From Hydrogenothermus marinus (lineage in GTDB: Bacteria; Aquificota; Aquificia; Aquificales; Hydrogenothermaceae), in assembly GCF_003688665.1 (NCBI RefSeq), contig NZ_REFO01000010.1, positions 186,001 to 250,000 of the forward strand: a stretch of DNA of 64,000 nt, written 5' to 3'. Of the stretch, positions 16,006-56,859 are shown in pieces (the stretch's first letter is position 1; every line of letters begins with the position of its first letter). Both the position numbers and the translations under genes were made by a program. The notes below the pieces were generated by a model. That model was not told the DNA's origin, did no database searches, and saw nothing but the letters and a program-made list of their open reading frames with translations.

Positions 16006-16944
16006 CTAACCTCCTAATTTTTCTCCAATCTTTATATGATAACCTCTAACTGCATCATCTGCTGATATTGCCTTTGAGTTTGGAAACTGCAATTTTTCAA
16101 CTAAAATTTTTCCTTTTCCTGTTTGAACTACAAAACCTTTACCTTTTATAATATCTGTAATTTCTCCAAATTTTCCAGTGGAATTTTCATCTATAACTTT
16201 TGCTTCTAATATTTTTATCTCTTTATCTCTAAAAGTTGTAAATGCTTTTGGCCATACTTTAAAAGCCCTTATCTGATTAAAAATATCCCTTGCTGATTTT
16301 TCCCAGTTTATTTTACCTTCTTCTTTTTTTATTGGCTTTGCATAAGTTGCTTTTTCATTCTCTTGAGGTTTCTTATTTATTTTTCCAGTTTCTATTTTAT
16401 CTAAAACTTTTATTAATAAATTTGCTCCTTCTTTTGCAAGTTTGTCATGTAAAGTGATAATATCATCTTCTTCAGTTATTGGAACTTCGCTACATTCATA
16501 AATATCTCCTGCATCAAGTTCTTCTGTTATTTCCATAATACAAACACCTGTTTTTTCTTTTCCTTCAAGAATTGCTCTATGGATAGGTGCAGCTCCTCTA
16601 TATTCTGGTAGCAATGAAGCATGTACATTAATTGTTTTATATTTTGGAAGTTCTATTATCTGTTTTGGAAGTATCTTTCCATAAGCAACAACAACTGAGA
16701 TATCAGGGTTTAGTTCTTTTAAAATATGTAAAATTTCAGGATTATTTTTTATTTTTTCAGGTTGATACACAGGAATATTATTTTCTTGAGCTATTACTTT
16801 TACAGGTGGAGGTGTTAATTTTTTACCTCTTCCTTTTGGCTTATCTGGCTGTGTAATTACTGCTAAAACCTTATGTTTTGAATTTATTAAAGCTTTTAAA
16901 CTTTCTGCTGCAAAATCTGGTGTTCCCCAAAATACTATATTCAA
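16006..16944 (-). CDS. fmt: Methionyl-tRNA formyltransferase
   Basis: Fmt formylates initiator Met-tRNA using 10-formyltetrahydrofolate. The 312 residues include [18 protein letters not shown] at the start, the catalytic Asn/His region [20 protein letters not shown] and the later [11 protein letters not shown], plus the C-terminal tRNA-binding domain. Length is normal. A peptide deformylase gene is not adjacent. It follows the DeoR-NosL regulator by 2 bases and probably shares its transcript. Confidence 0.97.
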
Positions 16945-16946
16945 TA

Positions 16947-17558
16947 TTATTCTCCTTTTTTCAAATCTGAAAGCTTAATTGTTTGAGGTTGGCAACAACT
17001 TTTTATATTTCTATTTGTTGAGTTTACTATCTCATTATAAGCTTCAAAAAAGTTTAATACCTTTCCTCCAAAACCTTTTGCAAATTTTTCTGCATCTTCT
17101 TTTGAAGAAAATGGAATTACACTTGGACTGCAACAAGGCTTTGCACTGCTTGCTACAACAAAATATGCATTAAATGCAGTTATTGGATTTTCTGTAATAA
17201 AATCATATGTTATTGCAGAGACTTCTTTGTCTTCATACTTTTTATGAAGTAAAAATCCACAATGTTCACAGCAAGCTTCTAAAGTTTTTTTATCTTCTAT
17301 CACAATTTTATAAGGATGGCTTCTTGTAATAGCTTTTTCACATATAGGACATGTATCAACTGTTTTAGATTCTTTATTTTCTTTTGTATTTAATAATATA
17401 GAGCCATGTTTTCTTATTATCTCTCCAGTTTTTTCTAACTGTTTTATATCTCTATAAATAGTCATTTCAGAAACTTTAAATACATTTGCAAGCTCTTTTG
17501 CAGTAACTTCATTTTTTTCTCTTAAAATTTCTAATATCCTCTTTTTTCTATCCATCAT
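16947..17558 (-). CDS. DeoR-type helix-turn-helix fused to a NosL-like cysteine-rich domain; candidate metal sensor
   Basis: The 203-residue protein has a DeoR winged helix (residues 1-57: [20 protein letters not shown], recognition helix). It then resembles NosL, the copper-handling accessory lipoprotein of nitrous oxide reductase, with TCPICEKAI (Cys70, Cys73), EACCEHCGF (Cys96, 97, 100), and the NosL-type end [16 protein letters not shown] with [20 protein letters not shown]. Extra cysteine pairs sit at 142-143 and 188-189. It lacks a signal peptide, so unlike NosL it should be cytoplasmic. A DNA-binding domain joined to a thiolate-rich domain points to a copper or other soft-metal responsive regulator. 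Target genes are not evident. Overlaps hisB by 4 bases. Confidence 0.8.
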
Positions 17559-18142
17559 AAACTTCCTTTTGTAGAAGGTATTTCATCCTTTCTTCTTTTA
17601 TCTATTTCTATAGCATTTCTAATTGCTACTGCAAATGCTTTTGTTAAACATTCAGCAATATGGTGTAAATTTTTACCTGATAAAGCTTTTAGATGAACTG
17701 TTATTCCTGCAGAAAGGGTAAAACCTTTAAAAAATTCTTCCATAAGTTCAAAATCAAACTCTGTAATTTTTCCTTTAAATCCTAAATCATCATAAAAAAT
17801 AAGTGGCCTTCCTGATAAATCTATAGAACATAATGCAAGAGCTTCATCCATAGGTATAATTGCATATCCAAATCTTTTTATTCCTTTTTTATCTCCAAGA
17901 GCTTTTTTTAATGCCTCTCCAAGAACAATACCTGTATCTTCTACTGTGTGATGATGACTTATATGGACATCTCCAGATGCTTTTAGATTTATATCTATTA
18001 ATGAATGCTTTGAAAAACTTTCTATCATATGATTTAAAAATCCAACAGGTGTATCTATATTATTTTTTCCTGTTCCATCTAAATTTATCTCTGCTTCTAT
18101 CTGAGTTTCTTTTGTTTCTCTTTTTATATATGCTTTTCTCAA
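17555..18142 (-). CDS. hisB: Imidazoleglycerol-phosphate dehydratase
   Basis: HisB dehydrates imidazole glycerol phosphate to imidazole acetol phosphate in histidine synthesis. This is the 195-residue monofunctional form, without the phosphatase domain of the enterobacterial enzyme. Manganese-binding motifs are clear: [31 protein letters not shown], and [20 protein letters not shown] near the end. It sits between dnaC and the DeoR-NosL regulator with 4-base overlaps at both ends, so it is translationally coupled to unrelated genes. hisA lies at 46.7 kb, so his genes are scattered. Confidence 0.97.
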
Positions 18143-18873
18143 TCTTCATCTTCCTCCTGAAGTCTATTCAAGAAATTTCTTCCTCTAACATCTGGGCCTT
18201 TAACATATATTACTTCACAGATTTCTCTAATCCTTGATGCTATAGAACTTCCTAATTTTTCTTCTAAGGAAGTTTGCATTTCATCATCTGAACTTAAATC
18301 TAAGTTAGATGTAATTATAATTGGTTTTTGCTCATTATATCTATGAATTATTACATAATGTAGGATATCTTTTGCCCAATCTGAAAGTCTTTCTGAACCT
18401 AAGTCATCTAAAACTAAGATAGGTGCATCTAAAACCTCTTCTAAAAGCTCTCTACTTGATGCAGAACCATCAAATGTAAGTTTTAAATCAAAAAGAAGGG
18501 TTCTTGTATCTCTAAATAAGCCTACAATACTTCTTTTTAAAAAGAAATCTTTTAGTATAGAAACTGCAAGATGAGTTTTACCAACACCAGGTGGCCCTAC
18601 AAATAAAATACCTTTTCCTTCTTTATAATCATTGCTTAATACATACTGTTTTGCTTTATTTAATACTAAATCTTGTCCATATGCTTTTGTTGGCATAAAG
18701 TTTTCAAAAGAAACATCTCTATATCTTTTAGGAATTTTCATTCTGTTATAAATATTTTCTGTTATCTCTTTAAGTTTACATTTACATTTATATACAATAT
18801 TTCCTTTTTTTACCCAACCTGTATCTTTGCATATTTTACATTTTATTTTTTCTTCTTGTTTTATAGGCTTCAT
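18139..18873 (-). CDS. dnaC: DnaC/DnaI-type replicative helicase loader ATPase
   Basis: The 244-residue AAA+ protein loads DnaB helicase. The N-terminus has a zinc-binding cluster (C12-x2-C15, then C30-x-C32). The AAA+ core carries Walker A ([14 protein letters not shown]), Walker B ([11 protein letters not shown]), sensor 1 (IIITSNLDL) and an arginine finger region (ASRIREICE). Similar loaders are encoded in Aquifex. The IstB transposition helper family is related, but there is no transposase nearby, so the replication role is preferred. It starts 9 bases after the TetR gene and overlaps hisB. Confidence 0.88.
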
Positions 18874-20398: not shown

Positions 20399-20980
20399 TT
20401 AATTAATTTCTAATTTTGGATACTTTTTTTCTTTATCTACTATATGAATATCTTCTACTGCAAATTTGTTTTCTTTTAATAGGTTAAATAAACCTACTGC
20501 ATCTTCCTTTTTCTTTAAGCCAAAAACAAGACCACAGTGAGGATAAATTTCTTTTGGAACAGGTAGCATAACATATTTTTTATTTAGTTTTTTTTCTTCA
20601 AGCCATTTATTTGCCCTTAAACCTTCGGCAACTGAAACAAATGTTATTAAATATTTTGGCTTTTTTGTGAAAAAAATATCAAGAAGATGTTTTTTTATAT
20701 GAAGTTTTACACCAAGAGAAATAAACTTAATTTTATCAATTAATTTCTCTCCTTTAAAACCTTTTCCTCTTTCTATTATTGCTACATAATAACCATTTTC
20801 TTCTTTAAACTCTATTAGTTTATTACCTGTTTCAAAAGCCCATGAAGAAATATCCTTTTTAAATGCTTTATCATCTGCAATAACTTTTATTTTCTCCCCA
20901 ACAGGTATATTTTTTAGTTCTTTAGAAACAATAGTTAAAGGAATAGGACAGAATAAGCCTCTTGTATCAACTACTTTCAT
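20399..20980 (-). CDS. TusA-like sulfur carrier domain fused to a DUF3343-like domain
   Basis: The 193-residue protein is two small sulfur-related domains joined. Residues 1-72 form a TusA/SirA domain with the active C-P-x-P motif (RGLFCPIPLTIV, Cys11). Residues about 108-180 resemble DUF3343, proposed to be a Se/S carrier: YLITFVSVAEGLRANKWL, then MLPVPKEIYPHCGLVFG with one conserved cysteine (Cys149). Two cysteines in one chain suggest an internal persulfide relay, for example in tRNA thiolation, molybdopterin or sulfur oxidation. Its stop is followed by a 1-base overlap arrangement with the HIT gene upstream. The linker (residues 75-105) is basic and amphipathic. Confidence 0.8.
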   Translation of the reverse strand: MKVVDTRGLFCPIPLTIVSKELKNIPVGEKIKVIADDKAFKKDISSWAFETGNKLIEFKEENGYYVAIIERGKGFKGEKLIDKIKFISLGVKLHIKKHLLDIFFTKKPKYLITFVSVAEGLRANKWLEEKKLNKKYVMLPVPKEIYPHCGLVFGLKKKEDAVGLFNLLKENKFAVEDIHIVDKEKKYPKLEIN

Positions 20981-54774: not shown

Positions 54775-56859
54775 TTACCAATTTTTAACTCTTATAGAAT
54801 TACCTATTACAAATGCACTGCTTAAAACCATAGCAAGAGCGGCTAAAATAGGACTTAAATTACCAGTTAATGCATATCCTATTCCAATTATATTATAAAT
54901 AAAAGCCCAAAATATATTTGTATAAATTACTCTTTTAACTTTTCTTGCAAGTAAAATCATTAAAGGAACTTTTCTTAAATCATCACTTACTAAACTTATG
55001 TTTGCACTTTCTTTTGTAATGTCTGTACCACAACCCATAGCAATTCCAATATCTGCTTTTGCAAGAGCTGGAGCATCATTTATACCATCTCCAACCATTG
55101 CAACTACTTTAGCTTTTTGTTTTTCTTTTTCTATTTCCTTAATTTTATCCTCTGGTAAAAGATTTGCTTTAACTTCTTCAATTCCAAGTTTTTCTTTTAT
55201 TATCCTTGCGAAATACTCTGTATCTCCGGTTAAAACTTTTATTTTTAACTTTAATTTTTTCAAAGCCTTTATGGCAATAGGAGCTTCATCTTTTATTTTT
55301 TGAGAAAATGTAATTATTCCAAGAACTTGTTTATCATTAAATATAAATACTGGAATTTCTGCATTTTTTTCTGCTTCTTTCTCTATCTCTTCTAACTGTT
55401 GGGGTATTGTTAAGCCTAATTTTGAAATAAATTGTTTATTTCCAATATATAATTTTTCTCCATTTACTATACCTTCAATTCCATAACCAAAATGGGTTTT
55501 AAAATCTTTTACATTACAATCAGCAGTTAGATTTTTTGATTTACAATAATAAACAAAACTTATAGCTAAAGGATGTTGAGACATTTTTTCTAAGCAGTAA
55601 GCTTTTTTTATAATATCTTCATCTTTTGCTTTGACTTTACTTACCATTAAAAATCTTTCTGTAATTGTGCCTGTTTTATCAAAAAATATAGTTTTTACAG
55701 ATGATAATTTTTCAAGAACATCAGCTCCTTTGATAATAATTCCTTCTCTAAAAGCCTCACTTAAACCAATCCATAAAGCAAGAGGAGCTCCAATACTAAA
55801 TGCACAAGGACAAGATATTAATAAAACAGACATTGAAGTTATTAATGCTTTTTCAAAACCTGCTTCAACATACCAGTATGCAAAAGCTCCAGCTGATAAA
55901 GAAAGCATTACAGGTAAAAAGTATGCTGAAACTGTATCTGTAATTCTGTTAATAGGTGCTTTTGAGTTTCTAATTTCTTTCATCATTTTAATAAATTTAT
56001 TTAAAGCCCATTCTTCTTGAGGTTTTATAACTTTAATTTTTAAAAATCCATTATTAAGTATAGTTCCTGCATAAACTTCATCTTCTTCTTTTTTAGAGAC
56101 TGGTTTTGATTCTCCGGTAAGCATACTTTCATCTACATATCCATTTCCTTCTAAAACAATACCATCAGCAGGTATTTTTTCTCCTTCTTTAACAAGAACA
56201 ATATCACCTAGTTTTAATTTATCAGCATTAACTTCTATCTCTTTACCATCTTTTAATAAAGTTGCTTTTTGAGGTACTAATCTTAAAAGCTGTTTAGCAA
56301 AATTTGAGGCTTTAACTCTTGAAGATGTTTCTAAATATCTACCAAATGTAACTAAAACAAGTATCATTGTTGCAGTTTCAAAATATATAGAAGGTTTATT
56401 TGTAAATACAGAATAAACTGATAAAAAATAAGCAGAAAAAGCGCCTATAGCAATTAATGTATCTGTATTAAAATTTAGCCAGTTATGTCTTGAAAATGAG
56501 TTTTTTAATATAGGAATCCCAAGTAAAATCATTACAGGGGTAGAAAGAATTAAAATAATATATTTTATAACCTTTGTAAAAGCTTGAGCCTCTGGATCAT
56601 CAGGAGTCATATGTGCTCCATAAAGGTATGTAGAAAGCATAAAAACAATCATAGCTAAAAAATAACCGAAGCCAAATTTACCAAGAAAAGCTACTGCATT
56701 TCCTTCTTCTCCTCTTAAACCGGTAGTTTTATTTATTAAATAACAACCAAAACAACAAAAATCTTCAACTTGGCCATTTCCAATATCATATCTTAAAGAT
56801 TTTCCAGTAATTGGTATTCCACATTGATAGCATTCTTTATTTGCCAACTTTTCCCTCAA
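54775..56859 (-). CDS. Copper-type P1B ATPase, CcoI/FixI-like
   Basis: The 694-residue protein begins with a cysteine module (C10-x2-C13 ... FCCFGC at about 34-39), as in CcoI/FixI, but has no HMA (GMxCxxC) domain. The membrane core has the metal-binding CPC (LLISCPCAFSIGAPLA). Catalytic parts are intact: TGES in ESMLTGESKPVS, phosphorylated Asp in FFDKTGTIT, SQHPLAIS, and MVGDGINDAPALAKADIGIAMG. Such pumps move Cu(I) out to the periplasm, for cytochrome oxidase assembly in the FixI group. No oxidase genes are in the window. Divergent from pyrK. Confidence 0.92.
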   Translation of the reverse strand: MREKLANKECYQCGIPITGKSLRYDIGNGQVEDFCCFGCYLINKTTGLRGEEGNAVAFLGKFGFGYFLAMIVFMLSTYLYGAHMTPDDPEAQAFTKVIKYIILILSTPVMILLGIPILKNSFSRHNWLNFNTDTLIAIGAFSAYFLSVYSVFTNKPSIYFETATMILVLVTFGRYLETSSRVKASNFAKQLLRLVPQKATLLKDGKEIEVNADKLKLGDIVLVKEGEKIPADGIVLEGNGYVDESMLTGESKPVSKKEEDEVYAGTILNNGFLKIKVIKPQEEWALNKFIKMMKEIRNSKAPINRITDTVSAYFLPVMLSLSAGAFAYWYVEAGFEKALITSMSVLLISCPCAFSIGAPLALWIGLSEAFREGIIIKGADVLEKLSSVKTIFFDKTGTITERFLMVSKVKAKDEDIIKKAYCLEKMSQHPLAISFVYYCKSKNLTADCNVKDFKTHFGYGIEGIVNGEKLYIGNKQFISKLGLTIPQQLEEIEKEAEKNAEIPVFIFNDKQVLGIITFSQKIKDEAPIAIKALKKLKLKIKVLTGDTEYFARIIKEKLGIEEVKANLLPEDKIKEIEKEKQKAKVVAMVGDGINDAPALAKADIGIAMGCGTDITKESANISLVSDDLRKVPLMILLARKVKRVIYTNIFWAFIYNIIGIGYALTGNLSPILAALAMVLSSAFVIGNSIRVKNW

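Follow-up and report, generated by a model that had tools for sequence, protein, structure and literature searches.

In Bacillus subtilis, YcnK is the copper-dependent repressor of the ycnKJI operon and acts through a helix-turn-helix (PMC8424229, PMC12154828); it has also been published as a copper regulator of this organism in PMC13344008. The operon goes down when copper is replete (PMC12154828), and copper has been proposed to antagonize YcnK (PMC13344008), so that these two reports disagree on whether the metal works with or against the protein. No solved structure of YcnK was found. The archaeal regulator CopR combines a helix-turn-helix with a TRASH domain (PMC7830388), and NosL and TRASH proteins have been proposed as relatives of MerB, being aligned with it too poorly to root its tree (PMC8261052).

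The window analysed here, a 64,000-nucleotide stretch of the Hydrogenothermus marinus genome (contig NZ_REFO01000010.1, positions 186,001 to 250,000), contains a YcnK-type regulator gene on the minus strand at 16947..17558. The gene is a single clean ORF encoding 203 amino acids with an ATG start, and a second ATG 3 nt in is an alternative start. Directly upstream lies hisB (17555..18142, minus), the stop codon of which overlaps the regulator start by 4 nt (ATGA), and this in turn follows a gene for a DnaC/IstB-like ATPase (18139..18873, minus), the first of a conserved trio. Downstream, a gap of 2 nt separates the end of the regulator ORF from an fmt-like gene for methionyl-tRNA formyltransferase (16006..16944, minus). 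All three neighbours were named by eye from their sequences. Embedded in the dnaC-hisB operon, the regulator gene is not preceded by a separate upstream region. Elsewhere in the window, positions 20399-20980 encode a fusion of a TusA domain (Pfam E 2.9e-21) with a Se/S-carrier-like domain (E 1.2e-12), and a fusion gene of this kind lies near the regulator in many Hydrogenothermaceae.

An earlier note on this DNA had placed a DeoR helix-turn-helix at residues 1–57 of the protein, and Pfam recovered this DeoR-type winged helix-turn-helix at residues 4–59 (17382..17549, minus; PF08220, HTH_DeoR, E 6.6e-14, 51.8 bits against a cut-off of 21). In the AlphaFold2 model, which was built on an 18-row alignment, it features helices 2–15, 20–27 and 31–43 plus wing strands. 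The NosL features that the same note had described belong to a predicted NosL-like cysteine-rich sensor domain spanning residues 65–184 (17007..17366, minus) by Pfam, hhalign and Foldseek. Pfam matched NosL at residues 122–174 (E 2.3e-9, 38.1 bits against a cut-off of 24), profile-profile comparison of the regulator family with three NosL proteins encoded in nos operons of relatives covered residues 65–184 (hhalign E 1.8e-13), and a PDB sequence search matched NosL chains at residues 126–174 (E 0.002). The model has a mean pLDDT of 83 with disordered linker and tail, pLDDT falling below 50 at residues 184–203, and its best Foldseek match in the PDB is NosL 7og7 (E 4e-6, TM-score 0.65 by target, 2.7 Å over 120 columns), so that predicted structure and profile comparison both bear out the NosL assignment; further NosL chains and ten MerB chains follow below it. 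A DeoR-type sugar regulator was considered and rejected, since the Pfam matches comprise HTH models and NosL only, with no sugar-phosphate sensor domain. In NCBIfam the matches to sugar regulators score far below cut-off and centre on the HTH.

The fold of residues 65–184 is that of NosL, the periplasmic copper chaperone of nitrous oxide reductase, from which the regulator differs in its fused HTH, in having hisB and fmt as neighbours instead of nosZ, and in lacking both signal peptide and lipobox. By eye, nothing at the N terminus resembles a signal peptide, in agreement with the cytoplasmic location suggested beforehand. Separate true NosL genes are found in the nos operons of some relatives and there is none in this genome, where a genome search returned the regulator protein as the sole NosL-family match.

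The motifs that the earlier note had named are present, and the NosL-like domain contains strongly conserved ligand-type residues. Cys 70 and Cys 73 of a CPIC motif (residues 70–73, 17340..17351, minus) and Cys 96, Cys 97, His 99 and Cys 100 of an ACCEHCG motif (residues 95–101, 17256..17276, minus) are invariant in 92/92 distinct homologues spanning Aquificota, Bacillota and Chloroflexota. The pair Cys 142–Cys 143 (17130..17135, minus) is present in 91 of the 92, the sole exception having a gap there, and its loop falls in the alignment on the MGMN loop of the relatives' nos-operon NosL, so that the regulator differs from these proteins in having a cysteine pair at this place. A further pair, Cys 188–Cys 189 (16992..16997, minus), lies in a lineage-specific C-terminal tail that is disordered in the model. 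Both of the extra CC pairs noted earlier are thus present, but the second is not a general feature, being confined among Aquificota to the Hydrogenothermaceae branch. The spacing C73-x22-C96-x3-C100, counted from the sequence, follows the C-x22-C-x3-C rule for TRASH-type metal sites and is shared with archaeal CopR/CopT. These archaeal proteins would also be alike in working, coupling an HTH to a cysteine-rich domain that senses metal (PMC7830388), and they differ in having a smaller TRASH sensor unit instead of a NosL domain. Because the ligand set is kept across three phyla, cytoplasmic metal sensing by a NosL-type fold should be easy to test.

Outside the Aquificota, an alignment-based scan of species genomes found homologues in the Bacillus group, in Chloroflexota and in one Limnochordaceae genome. 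Two genomes of the B. subtilis group (L112 and L117) have two genes directly behind the homologue, in synteny with ycnK-ycnJ-ycnI; in L117 their products are a CopC-CopD-YtkA protein and a protein with DUF1775. The Bacillus homologue itself is matched by HTH_DeoR and NosL in Pfam, and the Chloroflexota homologues directly precede pcuAC, which encodes the PCuAC copper chaperone. The window protein has the YcnK-family layout of an N-terminal DeoR-type HTH and a C-terminal NosL-like domain in about 190–205 amino acids, shares with YcnK its length and all eight core Cys/His positions, and aligns collinearly over its full length with the Bacillus-group members, though at only 30–37% identity. The differences are the additional C-terminal CC pair of the Hydrogenothermaceae proteins and the position of the window gene in the dnaC-hisB operon, with neither ycnJ nor ycnI beside it. 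Linkage to the copper import genes ycnJ and ycnI was not taken as defining the family, as the Chloroflexota members have pcuAC instead and no CopCD gene adjoins the homologue at two of the six Bacillus-group loci. Judged by its sequence, the window gene is a YcnK-family member, ordinary in type. The earlier note had presented the fusion of HTH and NosL as a candidate new type of regulator; the ycnKJI arrangement around homologues, the domain content of the Bacillus protein and the pcuAC linkage all indicate that it is not new, and the architecture is that of YcnK as published (PMC8424229, PMC12154828, PMC13344008). The suggested link to soft metals, on the other hand, is well supported by the homology to YcnK, the copper-gene synteny of homologues and the invariant ligand-type residues.

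Sixty-one relatives were searched at the outset and then all 136 genomes of the phylum, with two partial matches set aside. Full-length homologues are present in 96/136 Aquificota genomes, all of them in the Hydrogenothermaceae-type and Aquificaceae-type families; the genomes of the phylum's other three families gave none. This distribution together with the invariant cysteines places the reality of the gene far beyond chance, and the gene is conserved and almost ubiquitous among aerobic Aquificales. In the regulator tree the Hydrogenothermaceae branch forms one group and the other Aquificota another, which is consistent with vertical descent within the phylum. On a contig labelled Acidobacteria (L099), which is probably misbinned, the regulator is of Aquificaceae type and falls within the Aquificaceae branch. 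Presence of the regulator follows that of the heme-copper oxidase subunit COX1, with 93 genomes having both, 32 neither and 11 discordant (three with the regulator only and eight with COX1 only, several of these eight coming from incomplete assemblies). Fisher's test gives p 3e-20 for this association, a value that ignores relatedness and is not to be taken literally. Few independent losses, mostly of whole families, lie behind the co-occurrence. CsoR-family regulators occur in 23 of the 136 genomes and in 19 of the 96 regulator carriers. The only CsoR-family gene of this genome (locus L167, 3091-3384) precedes a merA-like gene, named by eye, with an HMA-type N terminus and is for this reason probably not the copper sensor of the genome.

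We consider it probable that the protein, as a member of the YcnK family, regulates transcription in response to copper in the cytoplasm. Its domain make-up, the synteny around YcnK, the invariant ligands, the co-occurrence with COX1 and the presence of CsoR in only 19/96 carriers point to a cytosolic copper sensor of aerobic Aquificales as the most likely role. For the Aquificota proteins, Cu(I) as the metal, the identity of its ligands, the direction of the regulation and the position of the targets in trans are inferences. The N-terminal DeoR-type winged helix would bind the operator and the C-terminal NosL-like domain would bind Cu(I) via C70/C73, C96/C97/H99/C100 and C142/C143, the bound metal altering DNA binding. 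By analogy with B. subtilis YcnK, copper would most likely be a co-repressor of genes needed under copper scarcity. A copper sensor of known type would thereby be assigned to the aerobic Aquificales, nearly all of which carry this conserved gene, and, because most of these organisms have no CsoR-family protein, it is a concrete candidate for adjusting the copper supply of the oxidase.

The order dnaC-like gene, hisB, regulator is found in nearly all Hydrogenothermaceae, whereas the genes that come after vary and the fmt-like gene is not generally kept beside the regulator. In Aquificaceae the position of the regulator varies; one group has it divergent from tusA-dsrE-hdr-like genes, and others have it near pyrB (pyrimidine), flagellar or nuoG-like genes (all names by eye). 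None of the Aquificota genomes examined has a copper gene beside the regulator. Of the copper-gene neighbours anticipated for homologues, those of the Bacillus group (ycnJ/ycnI) and Chloroflexota (pcuAC) were thus found and none in Aquificota, while the consistent linkage to sugar genes that would have spoken for another function was seen in none of these groups. With neighbours in Aquificota of housekeeping or sulfur type, the copper link there is made by homology and co-occurrence and not by neighbourhood, and the embedding of the regulator in a housekeeping operon suggests that its targets would lie in trans.

These sulfur neighbours raise the alternative that the Aquificota branch was repurposed, its vicinal cysteines sensing reactive sulfur species (persulfide, sulfane sulfur) and the protein controlling sulfur-carrier or sHdr-type genes. 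Members of the phylum are often sulfur oxidisers, the TusA/Se-S-carrier fusion gene is near the regulator in Hydrogenothermaceae, and in many Aquificaceae the regulator and the divergent tusA-dsrE-hdr genes are separated by an intergenic region of 94–152 nt with the conserved stretch TTAGATTATCACCATATTTTTATAA (one group, L080-L104). The sulfur neighbours are not kept across Aquificaceae genera, however, and the ligand residues are exactly those of YcnK, the homologues elsewhere sitting with copper genes, so that we regard this alternative as unlikely. It is similarly improbable that the cysteine-rich domain holds a structural zinc site in a protein that represses constitutively or responds to another signal. 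The treble-clef/TRASH-like fold is often used for structural zinc, and C70/C73 with C96-C100 has such spacing, but YcnK is reported to be copper-dependent (PMC8424229) and C142-C143, at the NosL MGMN loop, adds two invariant cysteines beyond the need of a single Zn site. Sensing of a soft metal other than copper, for example Hg(II), Ag(I) or As(III), to which the thiol-rich site, the MerB-like fold match and hydrothermal habitats that can be rich in soft metals might point, is very improbable given that the regulator follows the heme-copper oxidase and that it is the lone CsoR-family gene, not the regulator, that precedes the merA-like gene (by eye).

The copper sensor favoured here shares with the organomercurial lyase MerB a winged helix plus a NosL/MerB-type domain, and differs from it in being a regulator, MerB being an enzyme. 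The ten MerB chains matched the model at Foldseek E 1e-5 to 6e-4 with poor full-length superposition (rmsd 14–16 Å), as different domain orientations would give. The MerB sequence used agrees with PDB 1s6l (212/212 residues), and sequence comparison with the regulator family was made for nine plasmid-borne MerB proteins. MerB and the regulator family align collinearly from the HTH to the C terminus (hhalign E about 0.02, 144–152 columns), with 2/60 column-shuffled controls scoring higher, whereas NosL and MerB give a weaker match (E 0.18, 7 columns). In this alignment C97 falls on the catalytic C96 of MerB and C100 on D99 (MerB catalytic set C96, D99, C159), at a score of 21.6 that some column-shuffled controls exceeded. 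As the match is not above shuffled controls, it was rejected as proof of kinship by sequence. It is nonetheless a tentative possibility that MerB has no closer full-length relatives than the YcnK-type regulators; MerB would then have arisen as an enzyme from a wHTH-NosL metal sensor, its N-terminal winged helix a DNA-binding relic and its Cys-Asp-Cys site derived from C97-C100-C142/143. If so, YcnK-type proteins would supply the outgroup that the mer phylogeny said was missing (PMC8261052), and with the two-domain layout of MerB they might, as a weak lead, be usable for rooting its tree.

For a YcnK-family operator one would expect direct repeats close to the controlled promoter; YcnK-like direct repeats were found in none of 14 Aquificaceae regulator upstream regions. 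T[C/A]ACA direct repeats are present in 5/11 non-Aquificota upstream regions, a pattern chosen after viewing the sequences, so that its score against shuffles is biased. The upstream regions of genes for copA, FixI-type and copB P-type ATPases, PCuAC and CopD in relatives, inspected mostly by eye, share no element with the regulator's own. By eye, the 'CopD' matches in Hydrogenothermaceae looked like HemJ and not like copper importers. The window itself encodes at 54775-56859 a P-type cation ATPase that carries the motif CYQCG..FCCFGC at its N terminus, is matched by the copper-ATPase model and is FixI/CcoI-like by eye. Upstream of the Aquificaceae copB-type P-type ATPase genes (L146-L149, L151, L152, L161, L163) there is a shared, conserved element GTTAAATTAAC..TTTAACGTTAAATAAAC, likely the operator of a regulator yet to be assigned. 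The Hydrogenothermaceae copB-type ATPase genes (L138, L139, L141, L142) have upstream ACTACA..TAGTAGT inverted repeats resembling CopY/BlaI operators, and copA of this family (L168-L176) is preceded by a separate small gene whose product has a hydrophobic stretch at the N terminus and the HMA-type motif GMHCAGC.
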